DNA from: Candidatus Hydrogenedentota bacterium
GTDB taxonomy: Bacteria; Hydrogenedentota; Hydrogenedentia; Hydrogenedentales; JAGMZX01
Assembly: GCA_029556545.1 (NCBI GenBank)
Contig: JAKQEQ010000139.1
Span: 1 to 22,465 of the forward strand
Length of the DNA stretch: 22,465 bases
Reading direction: 5' to 3'
The translations under genes were made by a program, and so were the position numbers. How positions within the stretch are numbered: the stretch's first letter is position 1; the number at the start of each line of letters is the position of its first letter. The notes under the pieces were generated by a model. It made no database searches, was not told where the DNA came from, and saw nothing but the letters and a program-made list of their open reading frames with translations. Shown in pieces: positions 735-18,571 of the stretch.

Positions 735-1733
735 ATGGAGCGGAAAAAGTGTTTTGGATGGTGCGTGTTGTGCGCGTTGGGGGTAGTTGCGCTTCTATCC
801 ACGAGCGCCGCGGCGAATTCGACCACGGTGTCCTACCAGGGTGTGCTTCGCGACGCGACGATGACGCCCGTGCCGGACGGCGCGTATCCGATGCGGTTCT
901 CGATTTGGGACGACCCGGCGGCGGGCAACAAGCGCTGGGGCGACGAGGACCATCCGGTGGTTCCGACGAAGAACGGCATGTTCTCGGTGTACCTGGGCAG
1001 CACCCTTTCCCTGGCGGGCGTGTTCGCGATGCATAGCTCGCTGTGGCTGCAGATCGAGGCGGACACGGGGGCCGGGCTCGAGGTCTACAGTCCGCGCGTG
1101 CCCTTGGCCAGTGTGCCCTACGCCCAAGACGCGCAGAACGGCTCGCTCATAGGCGAGATTATTTGTGTGTACATCGGCCTGCCCGGGGTGCCGAGCATTG
1201 CCGACTACCAGAGCCGCGGCTGGGCCCTCTGCAACGGCACCACCCCTGCCGCCCAAGGCATCGTCGGCTCGCCCATCACTGTGGCCCTGCCGAACCTGAA
1301 CGGGCAGGGCCTTTTCCTGCGCGGCGGCGCCACGGCGGGGACTATCCAGGGCCATTCCGTCGGCCCGCACAGCCACCCGGCCAGCTTCTCGGGCGGCAAC
1401 GCGGCCTCCGCCGGCGCCCACGAGCACTCGGTTTCGGGGACCACAAGCACTATCGGCAACCACACGCACACGCAATATGTCACGGCGAATCCAGGGGCCG
1501 GCCCCTACAACACAAGGGCGGACTACAATTCTGACAATAACAACCTGCAAAGATATCCCCAGGTTGAGACGTCTGCTGCAGGCAGTCACAACCACACGTT
1601 CAACGTGACATCGGGCAGCGCGGGCGCCCACGAGCACTTGGTTAGCGGCACGGTGACGGTGAATAACAACACGGGCACCACGGAGACGCGCCCTGTCAAC
1701 ATGTCGGTCGTCTATTTCATGAAAGTGCGCTGA
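735..1733 (+). CDS. Exported tail-collar-domain protein with HxH-rich tip (collar paralogue 1)
   Basis: This 332-residue protein starts at ATG 735, seven bases after AGGAG (723-727). The in-frame upstream Met at 702 is less likely because the paralogues also start at the Met before a Lys/Arg-rich signal peptide. Residues 1-27 form the signal peptide, with cleavage near AAA-N. Residues about 28-135 are a domain shared with the paralogues at 4341 and 5603 (VSYQG near its start, WGDE, GMFSVYLGS, PRVPLASVPYA at its end). Residues about 140-210 resemble the phage tail collar domain (GWALCNG, LPNLNGQGLFLRGG). Residues about 210-300 carry five HxH motifs (HSH, HEH, HTH, HNH, HEH), and the end has ETRPVNM as in phage fibre tips. 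In T4 gp37 such HxH motifs bind iron inside a trimeric needle, so a surface-exposed trimeric fibre is the likely structure. Target and function are unknown. The next gene starts 20 bases downstream, so the two may be co-transcribed. Confidence 0.85.
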   Translation: MERKKCFGWCVLCALGVVALLSTSAAANSTTVSYQGVLRDATMTPVPDGAYPMRFSIWDDPAAGNKRWGDEDHPVVPTKNGMFSVYLGSTLSLAGVFAMHSSLWLQIEADTGAGLEVYSPRVPLASVPYAQDAQNGSLIGEIICVYIGLPGVPSIADYQSRGWALCNGTTPAAQGIVGSPITVALPNLNGQGLFLRGGATAGTIQGHSVGPHSHPASFSGGNAASAGAHEHSVSGTTSTIGNHTHTQYVTANPGAGPYNTRADYNSDNNNLQRYPQVETSAAGSHNHTFNVTSGSAGAHEHLVSGTVTVNNNTGTTETRPVNMSVVYFMKVR

Positions 1734-1753
1734 GGATAGCGGAAGCCGAACTC

Positions 1754-4153
1754 ATGAACGATATTGGTGATAACCGGCAGGCGACGGCTACTGCCCGCCT
1801 TTCCGGGGCCTTGAATTGTGGTTCTCTTCCGAAGCGGCCTGCCGTGTACTGTTCATGCATTCAGCGCGCGATACCCGCGTTGTTGTTCCTCGCCGCATCC
1901 GTTCTCTGTGCCACAGCGGGCACGGCCCAAGAATTCACGCTGACCGTCAGCGTAATCGGTAACGGCACGACCGACCCGCCGCCCGGAACACACACGTACG
2001 ACGAAGGCGAGTTCGTATTTATCACCGCCACGCCGGATGTGGGTTGGGCCTTCGACCGCTGGGACGGCGACTACTCAGGCGAAGAAAGCACGTTGATTGT
2101 CGAAATGACCTTCGATACCAGCGTGACCGCCGTCTTTGTCGAGGGCGGCTACCCGCTGACCATCGCCGTGACCGGCAACGGCCAAACCATCCCCGCGCCG
2201 GGCACGCACACCTACGTGGAAGGGCGCGTGGTGCAGATTATGGCGTCCCCGGACTTGGGCTACCGCCTTGACCGCTGGGAGGGCGACGCATCAGGATCGG
2301 ACGACATCATCTGGGTCACCATGGACGGCCCCAAGAGCATCACCGCCGTCTTCGTGGAGATTCCAACCCGGACCGTGACCATTTCCGTCTTAGGCAACGG
2401 AACGACCAGCCCCCCACCCGGAACCTATGACTTTGCGGAGGGCGGCGTCATGCTGCTCAGCGCCTTGCCGGATTCCGGTTTTGCCTTTGATCGCTGGGAA
2501 GGCGATCTCGAAAGTACCGTGCAATACGTCGCACCGCTACTTGTCGACGATGACAAGGCCGTCACCGCCGTCTTCGTGGCCGCCGACCACACGCTGACCA
2601 TCACGCACACCGGCCAGGGCGAAACCCGGCCCGCAGAGGGCGCCCATGGCATGCTGGATGGCCGCGAGGCTGTCTTGCTGGCGAACCCTTTCGGTCCCTT
2701 GCCCGGCTGGCATTTCGCGCGATGGGAAGGAGACCTCGAAAGCACGGACAATCCGGCTTCCATGCTCATGGACGGCGATAAGACGGTCAACGCCGTGTTC
2801 GAGCAGGAATTCACGCTGCTGACTTGGGCGCAAGGCGGCGGTATCGTCGATCCCGACGGCCTTAATACGTATGCCCCGGGCACGGAAGTGACGATCACCG
2901 CGACCCCGCTCGCCGGTTGGATGTTCAGCCACTGGGAAGGCGACCTGAGCGGCGCCGAGAACCCGGCCACCATCATCATGGACGCGGACAAGGAGATCGC
3001 AGCCGTCTTCGTCGAGGAAGGCGTCCAATACACCCTCACCACGCTGGTTTCCGGTAGCGGCGGCGTCGAGCCCGCCGGCACGACCAGCCACGCACCCGGC
3101 GCGGAGGTCGCCCTCACCGCAACCCCCGACACCGGCTGGGTCTTCGTCGAGTGGCTGGGCGACCTCGCGGGCGCGGAGAATCCCGCCACGATCATCATGG
3201 ACAGCGACAAAACGGTGACCGCTGTGTTCGCCGAGACCAAATACGTGCTTACCATCGGCATCACCGGGGGCGGCACGGTGGATCCCGCGCCTGGCACGCA
3301 TGAATACCCCGCCGACACCGTGGTGACCATTACCGCCACAGCGCAGACGGGCTGGGTCTTTGACCAGTGGGAAGGCGACATTGCGGGGTCGGAGAATCCG
3401 CTCACCATCACCATGGACGGCGACAAGACGATTACCGCCGTGTTCGTACCCGTACCGTCCTATGTCCTCTCGATGGCGGCTGTGGGGCTGGGAAGCACCA
3501 GCCCCCCCGTGGGAAACCATTACTACCTCGCAAGCACCGAGGTGGCAGTTTCCGCCACCCCCGCGGAAGCCTGGAACTTCGACCGTTGGGAAGGCGGCCT
3601 CGAAGGCAACGAGAATCCCACCAGCGTCATCATGGACGGCAACAAGTCCATTACGGCCGTCTTTGTCCAGGAACCCGCGGAAGGCGAGGGTGAAGGGGAA
3701 GGGGAAGGGGAAGGCGAGGGTGAAGGCGAAGGCGAGGGCGAAGGAGAAGGCGAGGGCGAAGGGGAGGGCGAAGGTGAGGGGGAAGGGGAAGGCGAGGGTG
3801 AGGGCGAAGGCGAGGGCGAAGGCGAGGGCGAGGGCGAACCCGCAAGCCATACGGCGGACCAGAACGGGAACGGCTTTATCGAATTGACCGAGCTGCTGCG
3901 GGTGATCCAGTTCTATAACTCGGGCGGCTTCCATTGCGCGGAGAATCCCGGCGACACGGAGGACGGCTATATCCCCGGCCCCGGCGAGAACCATTCCTGC
4001 GTGGCGCACGCGAGCGACTACGCCCCGTCCGGCCCGGATTGGACCGTAAGCCTGACGGAATTGCTGCGCCTTATCCAGTTTTTCAACTCCGGCGGCTATC
4101 ATCCCTGCCCCGGCGAAGAAACGGAGGACGGCTATTGCCCCGGCACGGCATAA
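1754..4153 (+). CDS. Exported protein with eight InlB-B-like repeats, Gly-Glu linker and dockerin-like tail
   Basis: This 799-residue protein starts at ATG 1754 behind a weak GGAAG (1741-1745). Its N-terminal region is unusually long (about 36 residues) before a hydrophobic signal segment at about 38-57 ending ATAGTAQ, so a later non-ATG start is possible. Residues about 59-642 hold eight units of about 73 residues, each with GxGxxxPxxGxHxY near the start, ATPxxGWxFxxWEGD in the middle and a DKTITAVFV-type end. This is the pattern of the divergent InlB B-repeat family, a beta-rich extracellular repeat. Residues 643-695 are pure E(GE)n. The last 104 residues nearly duplicate the tail of the partial gene at 2-442, including the EF-hand-like DQNGNGFIELTE. 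The likely role is a cell-surface or secreted stalk; its ligand is unknown. It sits 20 bases behind collar gene 1. Confidence 0.9.
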   Translation: MNDIGDNRQATATARLSGALNCGSLPKRPAVYCSCIQRAIPALLFLAASVLCATAGTAQEFTLTVSVIGNGTTDPPPGTHTYDEGEFVFITATPDVGWAFDRWDGDYSGEESTLIVEMTFDTSVTAVFVEGGYPLTIAVTGNGQTIPAPGTHTYVEGRVVQIMASPDLGYRLDRWEGDASGSDDIIWVTMDGPKSITAVFVEIPTRTVTISVLGNGTTSPPPGTYDFAEGGVMLLSALPDSGFAFDRWEGDLESTVQYVAPLLVDDDKAVTAVFVAADHTLTITHTGQGETRPAEGAHGMLDGREAVLLANPFGPLPGWHFARWEGDLESTDNPASMLMDGDKTVNAVFEQEFTLLTWAQGGGIVDPDGLNTYAPGTEVTITATPLAGWMFSHWEGDLSGAENPATIIMDADKEIAAVFVEEGVQYTLTTLVSGSGGVEPAGTTSHAPGAEVALTATPDTGWVFVEWLGDLAGAENPATIIMDSDKTVTAVFAETKYVLTIGITGGGTVDPAPGTHEYPADTVVTITATAQTGWVFDQWEGDIAGSENPLTITMDGDKTITAVFVPVPSYVLSMAAVGLGSTSPPVGNHYYLASTEVAVSATPAEAWNFDRWEGGLEGNENPTSVIMDGNKSITAVFVQEPAEGEGEGEGEGEGEGEGEGEGEGEGEGEGEGEGEGEGEGEGEGEGEGEGEGEGEPASHTADQNGNGFIELTELLRVIQFYNSGGFHCAENPGDTEDGYIPGPGENHSCVAHASDYAPSGPDWTVSLTELLRLIQFFNSGGYHPCPGEETEDGYCPGTA
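3680..3838 (+). repeat. GGNGAR hexanucleotide repeat coding for Gly-Glu
   Basis: Fifty-three codons alternate Glu and Gly without exception, with third positions varying among the synonymous options. It matches the tract at 2-127 in type and in position relative to the following module. Confidence 0.95.
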
Positions 4154-4207
4154 GACAAAGATGGGAAACCGCGATTGGACGGACTTCTGCTCCTCCGCCA
4201 GAGGCGT

Positions 4208-4236
4208 TTGGAGAAATGCAACGCGTGGTGTATAAT
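4208..4236 (+). promoter_or_regulatory. Likely sigma-70-type promoter of collar gene 2
   Basis: TTGGAG (4208-4213), a 17-base spacer and a perfect TATAAT (4231-4236) lie about 105 bases upstream of the ATG at 4341. The context GGTGTATAAT is repeated before collar gene 3. Confidence 0.6.
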
Positions 4237-4340
4237 TCTCCGGGGCAAAACGGGGCGTGGGATTTAGGTCAAAGTCGGCTGCGGTCACGGGCAAAGGGTT
4301 AACCATGCGTTGTCATATTCTTCATAGGAGGAGCCCGAAA

Positions 4341-5273
4341 ATGGATCGGAAAGCGTATGTCGGTTGGCGCGTACTGGGCATTCTGGCGGTGGGCGCGCTG
4401 CTGGCGGCGGGCGCGGCGGCAAACTCGAACACGGTGTCGTATCAGGGCATGCTGCGCGACGCGACGATGACGCCGGTGCCGGATGGCACTTACCTGATGG
4501 CGTTTTCGATCTGGGACGATGCGACGGCGGGCACGAAACACTGGGGCGACGAGGTCCACAGCGCGGTGCCCACGAAGAGCGGCATGTTTTCCGTTTATCT
4601 CGGCAGCACCCAATCGCTGGGCACGCTGTTCACCGATTATGGCGTGCTGTGGCTGGAAATCGCGGCGGACCCCGGATCGGGACTCGAAGTATACGCCCCC
4701 CGCGTGCCCCTCGCGAGCGTCCCCTATGCGCGGCACGCCGCCACTGCGATAAACGCCGTCAATGCGACCAATGCGGTGAACGCCGTGAACGCGGGAAACG
4801 CCGACACGGTGGACGGGCTGCACGCTTCCGATCTGCAGGCAATCATCAACGCGGTCGCGAACCAGCTCACGCCGATCGGCACCATCGTCGGCTGGCACAA
4901 GAATCTGAGCGGCACGCCCGCGCTGCCCGGAACCTGGGTCCAGTGCAACGGCCAGGTCATCAACGACGCCGGATCCCCGTATAACGGACAGACGGCGCCC
5001 AGCTTGAATGGAACGGGTCGGTTCCTGCGCGGCAGCGCCACCTCGGGGACCCTGCAGGACCATCAACTTCAGGACCACCAGCATGCGTTTACGGAGACCG
5101 GCGCCAACAGGCCGCCCGATTCCGGAACGGTTTTCTACGTGCAGACGCTGCCCAGTCCCGGGTTCTGGTATAACAGTACTACGCTTAATACAAGTAACCC
5201 AATAACCGGCAACCATGGCTCGGAGACGCGTCCGAGCAACATGTCCGTAACCTGGATCATGCGGATCAAGTAG
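4341..5273 (+). CDS. Exported tail-collar-domain protein (collar paralogue 2)
   Basis: This 310-residue protein starts at ATG 4341, nine bases after a full AGGAGG (4326-4331); this excludes the longer in-frame reading from 4257. Residues 1-27 are a signal peptide. Residues about 28-135 are the N-terminal domain shared with the genes at 735 and 5603. Residues about 136-170 are an Ala/Asn/Val-rich stretch ending NADTVDGLHASDL, a motif known from tail-fibre-like and surface proteins. Residues about 179-240 resemble the tail collar domain (GTWVQCNGQ, LNGTGRFLRGS), with one HxH (HQH) just beyond. The end has ETRPSNMSV, like paralogue 1. A trimeric extracellular fibre is inferred. The gene has its own promoter-like element and stands 187 bases after the InlB-repeat gene. 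Confidence 0.85.
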   Translation: MDRKAYVGWRVLGILAVGALLAAGAAANSNTVSYQGMLRDATMTPVPDGTYLMAFSIWDDATAGTKHWGDEVHSAVPTKSGMFSVYLGSTQSLGTLFTDYGVLWLEIAADPGSGLEVYAPRVPLASVPYARHAATAINAVNATNAVNAVNAGNADTVDGLHASDLQAIINAVANQLTPIGTIVGWHKNLSGTPALPGTWVQCNGQVINDAGSPYNGQTAPSLNGTGRFLRGSATSGTLQDHQLQDHQHAFTETGANRPPDSGTVFYVQTLPSPGFWYNSTTLNTSNPITGNHGSETRPSNMSVTWIMRIK

Positions 5274-5602
5274 GTACATGGGGGATTGGTGATGGACATG
5301 ACTCGGGCGTTGCGCCCGCGACAAGCGGGCCGGGAAGGCCCTTGGAGTATGACGACAAGGCACATCGGAGCGTATGGACCCCGCCGCGTGTCGGGGCGGA
5401 AGAGTAACGTCGTGGCTCGACAGACCTGCAACGACGGAAGCCGCGGTTTCGTGCGCTTCTTGCGCCCGATCAGCGCGTCGGAATGGCCTGAGTTGGTGTA
5501 TAATGAGGCGTGTATCGGCCTGCCGGCCGATATCGAGATAAGCAGGGTTTCGGGGAAGCGAGCAATCATTTGGTCTTAAACGTTGTCATTAGGAGACTGA
5601 AG
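5274..5602 (+). other. 329-bp gene-free spacer between collar genes 2 and 3
   Basis: It holds two hairpins close to the stop codon (CGGGCG 5304-5309 with CGCCCG 5313-5318, and GGGCC 5327-5331 with GGCCC 5337-5341) and the TATAAT of the next gene at 5499-5504. An open frame at 5286-5579 has no ribosome site or recognisable product, and I do not call it. Confidence 0.6.
5499..5504 (+). promoter_or_regulatory. -10 box of collar gene 3
   Basis: A perfect TATAAT preceded by GGTG, as upstream of collar gene 2 (4227-4236). It is 98 bases before the ATG at 5603. No convincing -35 box is seen at 16-18 bases. Confidence 0.4.
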
Positions 5603-7030
5603 ATGTGCGGGAAGAAGTTTGTCGGTTGGCGTATGCTCGGGGTCTTGGCCGTGGCCGCGCTGCTGGCCGCGGGCGCCTCGGCGGATTCGGCAACGGTGTC
5701 GTATCAGGGGATATTGCGGGACGCGACGTTGACGCCGGTGGCGGACGGCGCGTATCTGATGGCGTTCTCGATCTGGGATGACGCAACGGCGGGCACGAAG
5801 CGCTGGGGTGACGAGGTCCATAACCCGGTGCCCACGAAGAACGGCATGTTCTCCGTATATTTGGGCAGCATCGTGTCCCTCGGGACAGTGTTTCTCGACT
5901 ATCCCGTTTTGTGGCTGGAAATCTCGGCGGATACCGGCGACGGGGTCGAGGTCTATGCGCCGCGCGTGCCGCTGGCCAGCGTGCCCTATGCGCAGCACGC
6001 CCGGAGCGCGTGGTCGATCAAGGGCAACGCGGCGCTGGGCACGGATTTCATCGGCACCACCAATGCGCAGGCCCTGATCGTCAAGACGGATAACGTCGAG
6101 AGAATGCGGGTGACCTCGATCGGGAGAGTCGGCATCGGGCAGACAAACCCGGGGGCGAAGCTCGAGGTAGGCGGTCTCGCGATAAATGAGCAGGGCCTGC
6201 GAATAACGGAAAGCGACAATAACCGGCACGTGTTCATTGCGCCCCATGTGGGCGCGGGCGGGTATAACCCGCTGTCACAATCCGGTGACTCCGGCATCTT
6301 CTTCAAAGAGACCAGCGACTCGAGCGGCCTGGTGATCGCCCCCTGGATTGGGACGGCAGGCGCCGGCATGCGCTTGAGCGCCGCCGGCAACCTTGGTATT
6401 GGCACGGGGACTCCGAGCGCCTCGGCAAAGGTGGAAATCGCCAGCACAACGCAGGGCTTCGCCATGCCGCGCATGACCACGGCGCAGCGCCGCGCCATCG
6501 CGTCGCCGGTCGCCGGACTCATGGTCTATGACATCAACTTGAAGGGCTTCTACTTCCACGACGGCGCGAAGTGGGACTGCGTGTCCACGCCGGCGGGCAC
6601 GGTGGCTTACTTTGCAAGAAACCTGGTCCCCAACGGCTGGCTCGAATGCGCGGGGCAAACCGTGTCGACTACGACCTATCCCGAGTTGTTCGCCGCCATC
6701 AGCTACACTTACGGCGGTAGCGGCACGAACTTTGTCATTCCCAACTTGCGCGGTGAATTCATCCGCGGTTGGGACAATGGCCGCGGATTGGACTCCGGCC
6801 GCAGCTTCGGCACTGTTCAAGGGCAGGATTTCAAGTCGTTCTCTATGCAGAATGCCAACGGGCCGACTTATTCATACAGCCATGGACCAATTCTATTTCC
6901 CAAGACCGGAATGAACGGCAATCTTTTTGGTGGAGAGTGGGCAGCTCCTTCCGGACATATCGCCGTCCAGTGGGACGGCTCCGAAATCCGTCCGCGCAAT
7001 TTCGCGCTGATGCCTTGCATCAAGTACTAG
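5603..7030 (+). CDS. Exported tail-collar-domain protein with long shaft (collar paralogue 3)
   Basis: This 475-residue protein starts at ATG 5603, seven bases after AGGAG (5591-5595). Residues 1-27 are a signal peptide and about 28-135 the shared N-terminal domain. Residues about 136-195 contain GTTNAQALIVKTDNVERMRV and VGIGQTNPGAKLEV, a pattern common in the shafts of phage tail fibres and bacterial adhesins. A related shaft segment at about 280-330 has AMPRMTTAQRRAIASPVAGL and MVYD. Residues about 332-410 match the phage tail collar domain well (GTVAYF, GWLECAGQ, YPELFAAI, PNLRGEFIRGWDNGRG). The last residues, EIRPRNFALMPCIKY, match the typical tip end of tail-fibre proteins. No phage morphogenesis gene is nearby, so I read it as a host surface fibre built from phage-type domains. 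Its binding target is unknown. Confidence 0.88.
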   Translation: MCGKKFVGWRMLGVLAVAALLAAGASADSATVSYQGILRDATLTPVADGAYLMAFSIWDDATAGTKRWGDEVHNPVPTKNGMFSVYLGSIVSLGTVFLDYPVLWLEISADTGDGVEVYAPRVPLASVPYAQHARSAWSIKGNAALGTDFIGTTNAQALIVKTDNVERMRVTSIGRVGIGQTNPGAKLEVGGLAINEQGLRITESDNNRHVFIAPHVGAGGYNPLSQSGDSGIFFKETSDSSGLVIAPWIGTAGAGMRLSAAGNLGIGTGTPSASAKVEIASTTQGFAMPRMTTAQRRAIASPVAGLMVYDINLKGFYFHDGAKWDCVSTPAGTVAYFARNLVPNGWLECAGQTVSTTTYPELFAAISYTYGGSGTNFVIPNLRGEFIRGWDNGRGLDSGRSFGTVQGQDFKSFSMQNANGPTYSYSHGPILFPKTGMNGNLFGGEWAAPSGHIAVQWDGSEIRPRNFALMPCIKY

Positions 7031-16456: not shown

Positions 16457-18223
16457 TCAATCCTCCAACACGGGCTGCTTGCCCGTGATCGCGCAGCCTT
16501 CCGCCAAGGCCGCCTTGAGGTCGAAGGGCGGGACAAAGTCGTCCTTTTTCAGACGCGCCTCATACAGCCCCGGGAAACTGCGGAGCGTGCTGAGAATCGG
16601 GTTGGCCGCCGTCTGGCCCAGGCCACACCGGCTCATGGTCTTGACGGTGTTGGCCACCTTCTCCATTTCCTGCACGTCGGCGCGCGTTCCGCGCCCGTCG
16701 AGTATCTTCGCAAGCTGCTTCGACAGGATCGTCGTGCCGACGCGGCAGGGAACGCACCAGCCGCACGACTCCTCGACGAAGAACTCTATGAACTGGCGCA
16801 TGCATTCGAGCAGGTCGCGCTTCGGGCCGAACACGATGATCGATCCGCCCGTCGGCAGGTCCTCGAACGAGATGCTGCGTCCGAAGTCTTTCGGCGCGAC
16901 GCACTGGCCCGAAGGACCGCCCACCTGGACCGCCTGCGCGTCCTCCGCGCCGACCATTTCGAGCAGTTTCTCGACCGTGATCCCGTACTCGAGTTCATAC
17001 ACGCCCGGGTGCTTGCAGTCGCCCGAGACGCTCAATAACTTGGTGCCGGTCGAGTCCCGCGTACCCATCGCGGCGAACCAGTCGCCGCCCATTTCGAGGA
17101 CGCGGGCCGCGCAACAGAGGGTCTCGACGTTGTTGACCGACGTCGGCTGGTTCTTGTAGCCCTTTTGCACCGGGAAGGGGGGCCGGTCGCGCGGGGCGCC
17201 GCGTTTGCCTTCGAGCGATTCGATCAGGGCAGATTCCTCGCCGCAGATATACGCGCCCGCGCCCAGTTGGATGCGGATGTCGAAGTCGAAACCCTCACAG
17301 CCGACGATGTTCTTGCCGAGCAGGCCGAGATGCCGCCTTTTCGCGAGGACCTGATCGAGGTGCGGCAGGAGGTACTCGTACTCGCCGCGCAGGTACAGCA
17401 GGCCTTCCTTGGCGCCCAGCGCGTAGCCCGCCACGGTCATGCCCTCGAAAAGCAGGTCCGGGCATTCCGTGAGGATCACCCGGTCCTTGAACGTGCCTGG
17501 CTCGCCCTCGTCCGCGTTGCAGATCAGGTAGCGCGCGTTGCCCTTCGCCTTCCGGCAGAAATCCCACTTCATCGCCGTCGGGAAGCCCGCGCCGCCGCGG
17601 CCGCGCAAGCGCGACTTGTTCATCTCGGCGATGACTTCCTCGGGCTTCCGGTTCACCGCGGCGCGAATCGCCGTGCCCCGCTCCATGGGGGCGAAAATCA
17701 CCGGTCCCGGCTTGCGCAAGTTGAGGTCCACTTCCGCCTGCGGCAGCGTGGCGATATCTTTGCCGTCCTGCAGGGCCTGGACGATCTTCGGCGCGTCCGC
17801 CGGCGTGAGATTCGTCACCGGCGTCGCGCCGATGAGCGCGCCCGGCGCCTGATCGCTCAAGCCGATGCACGGCGCGTGCTCGATCGTAATTGCGCCGTCC
17901 GGCGTCGTCTCGCCTACCTTGATGCCCAGCGCCTCCTCGAACGCGCGGGCTACCTCCTCCGCGCCCTTCATGCGCTCGGGCACTGCGTCGCAAAGACGGA
18001 TCACCGTCTTGCCCTTCGGACGGCGCGAGAAGAAGGCGTAAAAGCTCACCATGTCCCGCACCTGGACGCGGCGCATCCCGAGCGCATCCGCCACGTCGCC
18101 GATGGTGTCTTCCGTCAGGCAGCCCAGCTTCGCGTGCAGCGCCCGCGCGATGTCCATCAACCGGCCGCGGTCGCGCCCGAACTGCTCGACGACCTGGGTG
18201 ACCAATGCTGCGTCCCCTGCCAT
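16457..18223 (-). CDS. hoxF: NAD-reducing hydrogenase diaphorase subunit HoxF with fused NuoE-like domain
   Basis: This 588-residue protein starts at ATG 18223, nine bases after GGAGG (18233-18237). The frame stays open to 18496 but that extension has no ribosome site and low complexity. Residues 1-150 are a NuoE/HoxE-like thioredoxin fold, so no separate hoxE is needed. In it the ligand pattern C-x4-C / C-x3-C is reduced to C78 and C119, with E83 and S123 in the other places. Residues about 160-480 are the NuoF-like part with the Gly-rich GRGGAGFP, ICNADEGEPG for FMN and NAD(H) binding, and GAYICGEESALIES. The C-terminal [4Fe-4S] ligands are SCGWCVPC (C487, C490, C493) and C533. It oxidises or reduces NAD(H) at FMN. 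It is the first gene of the operon. Confidence 0.95.
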   Translation of the reverse strand: MAGDAALVTQVVEQFGRDRGRLMDIARALHAKLGCLTEDTIGDVADALGMRRVQVRDMVSFYAFFSRRPKGKTVIRLCDAVPERMKGAEEVARAFEEALGIKVGETTPDGAITIEHAPCIGLSDQAPGALIGATPVTNLTPADAPKIVQALQDGKDIATLPQAEVDLNLRKPGPVIFAPMERGTAIRAAVNRKPEEVIAEMNKSRLRGRGGAGFPTAMKWDFCRKAKGNARYLICNADEGEPGTFKDRVILTECPDLLFEGMTVAGYALGAKEGLLYLRGEYEYLLPHLDQVLAKRRHLGLLGKNIVGCEGFDFDIRIQLGAGAYICGEESALIESLEGKRGAPRDRPPFPVQKGYKNQPTSVNNVETLCCAARVLEMGGDWFAAMGTRDSTGTKLLSVSGDCKHPGVYELEYGITVEKLLEMVGAEDAQAVQVGGPSGQCVAPKDFGRSISFEDLPTGGSIIVFGPKRDLLECMRQFIEFFVEESCGWCVPCRVGTTILSKQLAKILDGRGTRADVQEMEKVANTVKTMSRCGLGQTAANPILSTLRSFPGLYEARLKKDDFVPPFDLKAALAEGCAITGKQPVLED

Positions 18224-18571
18224 AGTTCCTGGCCTCCACTGTTCCGACTTCCAATTTGCGGGAGCGACGTCCAGCCGGTTTCCCGCGCGCCCGATATCCA
18301 GGGGCAGCTTACTTCTGTTGCGCTTGGGAAAGAGCAGGAATCGTACCAGAATCGGCGAAAGCGCTGGATCGGATCGTAAGTTATTTATATCAGGCAAGTT
18401 ATGACGCTGAGCTCTTCGTAAGCTGAACGCCAGACGCAACCAGATTTGAGCATATATGTACGCATTGTACTGAGCATGTGCGCTCATATTGAGCATGTGT
18501 GAAATGCGCGGTATTGGCGTACCCCGTGCTTGCCGGGGACTCTACCGACATGAAACTGGGGAGCGCTAAGA
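18224..18571 (-). promoter_or_regulatory. 348-bp control region upstream of hoxF
   Basis: No gene is seen. The part near 18376-18400 is AT-rich and contains TATAAA on the minus strand (18389-18384). A second possible -10, TACAAT on the minus strand (18469-18464), stands among the TGAGCAT boxes. No -35 box of good quality accompanies either, which would suit an activator-dependent promoter. A GC hairpin (CCCCG 18522-18526 / CGGGG 18534-18538) lies just behind tsaC. Confidence 0.4.
18446..18496. promoter_or_regulatory. Cluster of TGAGCAT boxes (possible operator)
   Basis: Three direct copies, TTGAGCAT (18446-18453), CTGAGCAT (18470-18477) and TTGAGCAT (18489-18496), are joined by one inverted GCTCA (18482-18486), which forms TGAGC-N6-GCTCA with the second copy. 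Each direct copy is followed by AT or GTG. Such clustering in 51 bases is unlikely by chance and fits a transcription-factor target for the hydrogenase operon. Confidence 0.45.

Follow-up and report, generated by a model that had tools for sequence, protein, structure and literature searches.

The mosaic adhesive trimer (MAT) fibres of Bdellovibrio bacteriovorus have been described as prey-recognition tools (Caulton et al. 2024, PMC10769870). Each of these fibres combines a signal peptide, a conserved beta-rich N-domain of ~130 amino acids (aa), a variable shaft and swapped adhesive tips, with a typical length of ~1,000 aa, and an S74 peptidase serves as the tip domain of 13 of the 21 Bdellovibrio MATs. 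What anchors the N-domain at the surface is not settled in that paper. Phage tail fibres, such as gp12 and gp37 of T4, provide a second comparison; in T4 gp37, seven iron atoms lie along the needle, coordinated by histidines of the trimer (PMC6957217). A third is offered by dockerin-like and EF-hand C-terminal modules.

The window analysed here spans 22,465 nucleotides and corresponds to contig C124 in a draft genome of 6.1 Mb (G000); its forward strand encodes three proteins that resemble the MAT fibres. P0001 (735-1733, 332 aa) consists of a base domain and an HxH-rich collar/needle tip, without a long shaft; P0002 (4341-5273, 310 aa) joins the base through an Ala/Asn linker with an ADTVDG motif to a divergent collar tip; and P0003 (5603-7030, 475 aa) carries the base, a beta shaft and a Collar tip. 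We consider it probable that all three are MAT-like surface fibres, exported, held by their base and equipped with phage tips, and that the tag-bearing proteins encoded next to them are likely co-expressed surface proteins. Signal-peptide-like N-termini, with a hydrophobic stretch and a small-residue cleavage site, are found on the three proteins and on most of their paralogues, as judged by eye rather than by a dedicated predictor. The open reading frame starts and the domain at residues ~28-135 were likewise confirmed, in agreement with the earlier note, which had assigned a common signal peptide style and base domain to the genes at 735, 4341 and 5603. A promoter scan was uninformative.

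The base spans ~108 residues (about 28-135), encoded on the forward strand at 816-1136 in P0001, 4422-4742 in P0002 and 5684-6004 in P0003, and its pairwise identity among the three is 70-82%. With P0002 as the query, P0003, a paralogue on contig C42 and P0001 were recovered at E values of 1e-54 to 1e-67, a similarity far above chance, together with more distant copies. The NCBIfam model Bdello_MAT_N (NF053851) matches P0001, P0002 and P0003 at E 1e-6 to 6e-6, their 26-29 bits lying under its cut-off of 60 bits, and the best relative, from another family (L067) and with a base ~51% identical, reaches 52.6 bits (E 4e-14), also below the cut-off. When the 6.1 Mb genome was scanned with this model at E up to 10, all 30 places fell within the 15 paralogous open reading frames. 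Because these matches, although below the cut-off, are confined to the paralogues across the whole genome, and because of the score of the L067 relative, the sequences support distant homology between the base and the N-domain of the Bdellovibrio MATs, with the base lying outside the curated NF053851 subfamily. The base of P0002 was modelled with AlphaFold as a single chain from an alignment of six relatives, P0001 included, and the model is all-beta with good confidence (pLDDT 83, pTM 0.75). A signal peptide followed by a beta-rich N-domain is the order that characterizes the MAT superfamily. Comparison of the model with solved and viral structures (Foldseek, VIA) returned middling beta-sandwich matches (Z < 7), none of them clear and none confidently viral; Caulton et al. 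(2024, PMC10769870) likewise describe their own N-domain as having no clear solved match. The base was found neither among 50,697 phage records, where the best match was no better than E 0.3, nor in viral contigs, and as far as tested it appears to be bacterial.

This distant homology points to a MAT-like fibre set rather than the undescribed kind of apparatus envisaged in the earlier note, since MAT fibres have already been described (PMC10769870). The general architecture of MATs recurs here, from the signal peptide and the conserved beta-rich N-domain to the variable shaft and the swapped tips, as do the large size of the paralogue set (15-17 members here, 21 in Bdellovibrio) and a shaft motif resembling the capping loop. 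In contrast, the base is related only distantly, at sub-threshold scores; the proteins are shorter, at 310-600 aa; the S74 peptidase is absent from this genome, and phage Collar and gp37-like tips are present; and the genes lie beside lineage-specific tag proteins, often with InlB repeats, with no sign of predation. The genome holds 15 clear base copies in eight arrays, as well as 2 weak copies, so the set extends well beyond the three genes of the window. Base copies were identified in 17 of the 68 genomes of the phylum that were searched, and the other carriers have 1-4 copies each, which indicates an expansion in this genome. One bin each of Chloroflexi, Fermentibacteria and Deltaproteobacteria also contains relatives of the base. 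A scan of genome contigs for the base returned three distant relatives only.

The tips of all three proteins are phage-like, judging from their homology to tail fibres. The tip of P0003 (6587-7027, forward strand) is the only one of the three to match Pfam Collar (PF07484; E 5e-21, 74.8 bits versus a cut-off of 24); it shares 47.5% identity with a tail fibre of Pseudomonas phage Persinger in an alignment covering 99% of the tip, matches 972 phage records and has T4 gp12 (E 4e-7) among its best solved relatives. The shaft of the same protein contains the motif VGIGQTNPGAKL (6128-6163, forward strand), which resembles the MAT/S74 capping loop, with a second motif at 6392-6439, and its residues 151-192 match Bd3182 of Bdellovibrio (PDB 8ojn) at E 0.006. 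P0001 and P0002 have no Pfam match; what they hit instead are tail-fibre families of PHROGs (E 1e-6 to 1e-7). The divergent collar of P0002 has a segment in common with the collar of P0001 (39% identity over 77 aa, E 1e-9), and the earlier statement that the C-termini 'diverge completely' is therefore incorrect.

Within the P0001 tip, five HxH motifs (at 1368, 1419, 1461, 1587 and 1629, together spanning 1368-1637 on the forward strand) were counted, a number reached in none of 10,000 shuffles, and the protein ends in ETRPxNM. The HxH motifs and this ending are shared with the T4 fibres, as is the full Collar tip of P0003, and the closest solved chain to the P0001 tip is the T4 gp37 tip 2xgf, a weak match (E 0.045); a search of viral contigs for the P0001 tip found none. 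Because iron is coordinated by the histidines of the gp37 trimer, P0001 may, by analogy, form a metal-bearing needle of the same type. Unlike the T4 fibres, the proteins described here are apparently exported, have a base not found in phages and have no phage structural genes close by. The proposal of the earlier note that exported fibres combine a bacterial base with phage-type tips varying among paralogues is supported.

Comparison of the paralogues provides direct sequence evidence for modular tip exchange, in which similar tips occur on differently built fibres. Aligned over 204 aa, the tips of P0001 and of a paralogue on contig C25 share 53% identity, and over 226 aa the P0001 tip shares 43% identity with a fibre tip from another genome (G003), while the bases of P0001 and these two fibres are only 44-45% identical and their shafts differ. 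Additionally, P0003 and the C133a paralogue have a common Collar (~45% identity over 83 aa) on different bases. The set therefore displays the mosaic organization of the MAT superfamily, with a conserved base and exchangeable C-terminal tips. A separate type of tip, ending in VAVVYTxG, is common to the C190 copy of this genome and to fibres of two others, G039 (L073) and G040 (L085), at 49-58% identity; for the C190 copy, Pfam gave no match.

According to the proposed mechanism, the fibres would be exported by the Sec route, as their signal peptides suggest, and would trimerise, probably through the shaft and tip, by comparison with phage and Bdellovibrio relatives. The conserved all-beta base would retain each fibre at the cell surface, and the phage tail-fibre tip would bind a specific ligand at a surface, with a glycan from another cell or from a biofilm matrix as the likeliest candidate. 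Diversity of the repertoire would arise from duplicated base domains combined with swapped tips, the swapping itself being directly visible in the sequences. That an uncultured lineage unrelated to Bdellovibrio possesses an expanded set with shuffled tips suggests that further bacteria display phage-type receptor-binding tips on their own surfaces. There is a considerable chance, approaching an even one, that the fibres are general adhesins for particles or polysaccharide matrices and do not recognise other cells: nothing found points to predation, and some tips (the C132 and C133 types) lack Pfam matches, although the C132a tip does match phage tail fibres. On the other hand, the tips of P0001-P0003 belong to collar and gp37-like classes, which bind bacterial surface receptors in phages, even if their reuse on matrix glycans is plausible.

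The MAT-like fibre genes are accompanied by a second class of genes. P0004 (1754-4153, forward strand), a candidate partner, contains InlB-like repeats (PF18998) in eight stretches, a Gly-Glu linker (3683-3838, forward strand) and a C-terminal tag domain (3836-4147, forward strand) built of two LTELLR half-repeats, the first of which is EF-hand-like. Directly upstream of P0001, the end of a second gene with a Gly-Glu linker and tag lies at 2-442 on the same strand, cut by the contig start. The tag is an order-wide, lineage-specific module that occurs in 111 places in this genome. Its EF-hand-like loop and its two half-repeats recall dockerin-like modules; unlike them, it has only EF-hand matches below threshold in Pfam, with no family above the cut-off, and its structure model (confidence 41) gives no confident fold. 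The candidate role of a cellulosomal dockerin was set aside, given six cohesin-like places against 111 tag places, with some of the former on the same open reading frames as tags; two such cases in this genome are C33:42205-42834 and C116:7454-8245. Genes with a Gly-Glu linker and tag often lie at contig ends, as at 2-442 of the window and in many cases across the genome, probably because their repeats break the assembly.

At seven of the eight arrays, a tag gene lies on the same strand directly upstream of the fibre genes, its tag ending 49-327 bp from the fibre start, and most of these genes have a long Gly-Glu linker before the tag and several have InlB repeats; at the eighth array (C42), the tag gene lies just downstream instead. 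Gene order in related genomes agrees, with a tag gene upstream of single arrays in G001, G003, G039 and G040. Across five further tag-rich genomes, seven arrays were compared and four show the pair; G001 has it at one of three loci and G041 at none of one. These last two genomes, together with the fibres that lack a partner in tag-poor or tag-free genomes, indicate that the partner is not needed everywhere. The larger apparatus suggested in the earlier note is thus upheld in part, because Gly-Glu/tag genes, often with InlB repeats, recur beside fibres in several genomes, and the Ig-domain protein does not.

Linkage of the fibre and tag genes appears to be the new element of this system. The tag/InlB proteins could nevertheless be merely abundant neighbours, or passive baggage duplicated along with the fibre genes, a possibility to be taken seriously even though we lean against it. 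The abundance of tags in the genome and the incomplete pairing in G001 and G041 speak for it, as does the relatedness of the arrays by duplication, which makes them non-independent. An upstream tag neighbour is expected for ~2% of genes, and seven of eight corresponds to P ~1e-11 under a simple gene-level expectation, a value that overstates the linkage because the arrays share ancestry. Passive association is also opposed by the occurrence of the pair in other genera and families (L067, L071, L073 and L085), and by the matching of partners to fibre types: short tag proteins accompany the divergent type (C134, C190, G039, G040), and long InlB-repeat ones accompany most arrays of the main types (A/B). 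Under the preferred reading, the tag proteins, with their InlB repeats and Gly-Glu linker, would likely be co-expressed with the fibres and possibly act as anchor or partner of the base. A more doubtful proposition, and one we think rather unlikely, is that the tagged protein, which often has InlB repeats, holds the MAT-type base of the fibre and forms with it a surface attachment unit of two parts. The pairing of the genes nonetheless names a testable candidate for the surface element holding the MAT N-domain.

Derivation from a prophage or tailocin, as remnants or cargo whose exported look is accidental, would account for tips closest to phage tail fibres, but it is highly improbable and was dismissed on the signal-peptide-like N-termini of most paralogues, the failure to find the base in phage or viral collections, its 15 copies across eight arrays, and the chromosomal metabolism encoded by the following genes. 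These genes encode a histidine kinase, a response regulator, a NiFe-hydrogenase and housekeeping functions, consistent with the earlier observation that phage structural genes are absent nearby.

The Ig-repeat protein P0005 (7058-10888), whose tail weakly resembles IPTL-CTERM (E 0.19), was considered as a member of the system and rejected, since its relatives are nowhere near other fibre arrays; the closest of them are encoded at contig ends, on C164 and C52. Further along the window, an open reading frame on the reverse strand (16457-18301) apparently fuses NuoE-like and NuoF-like parts and adjoins HoxU-like and Vhu-like NiFe-hydrogenase genes.
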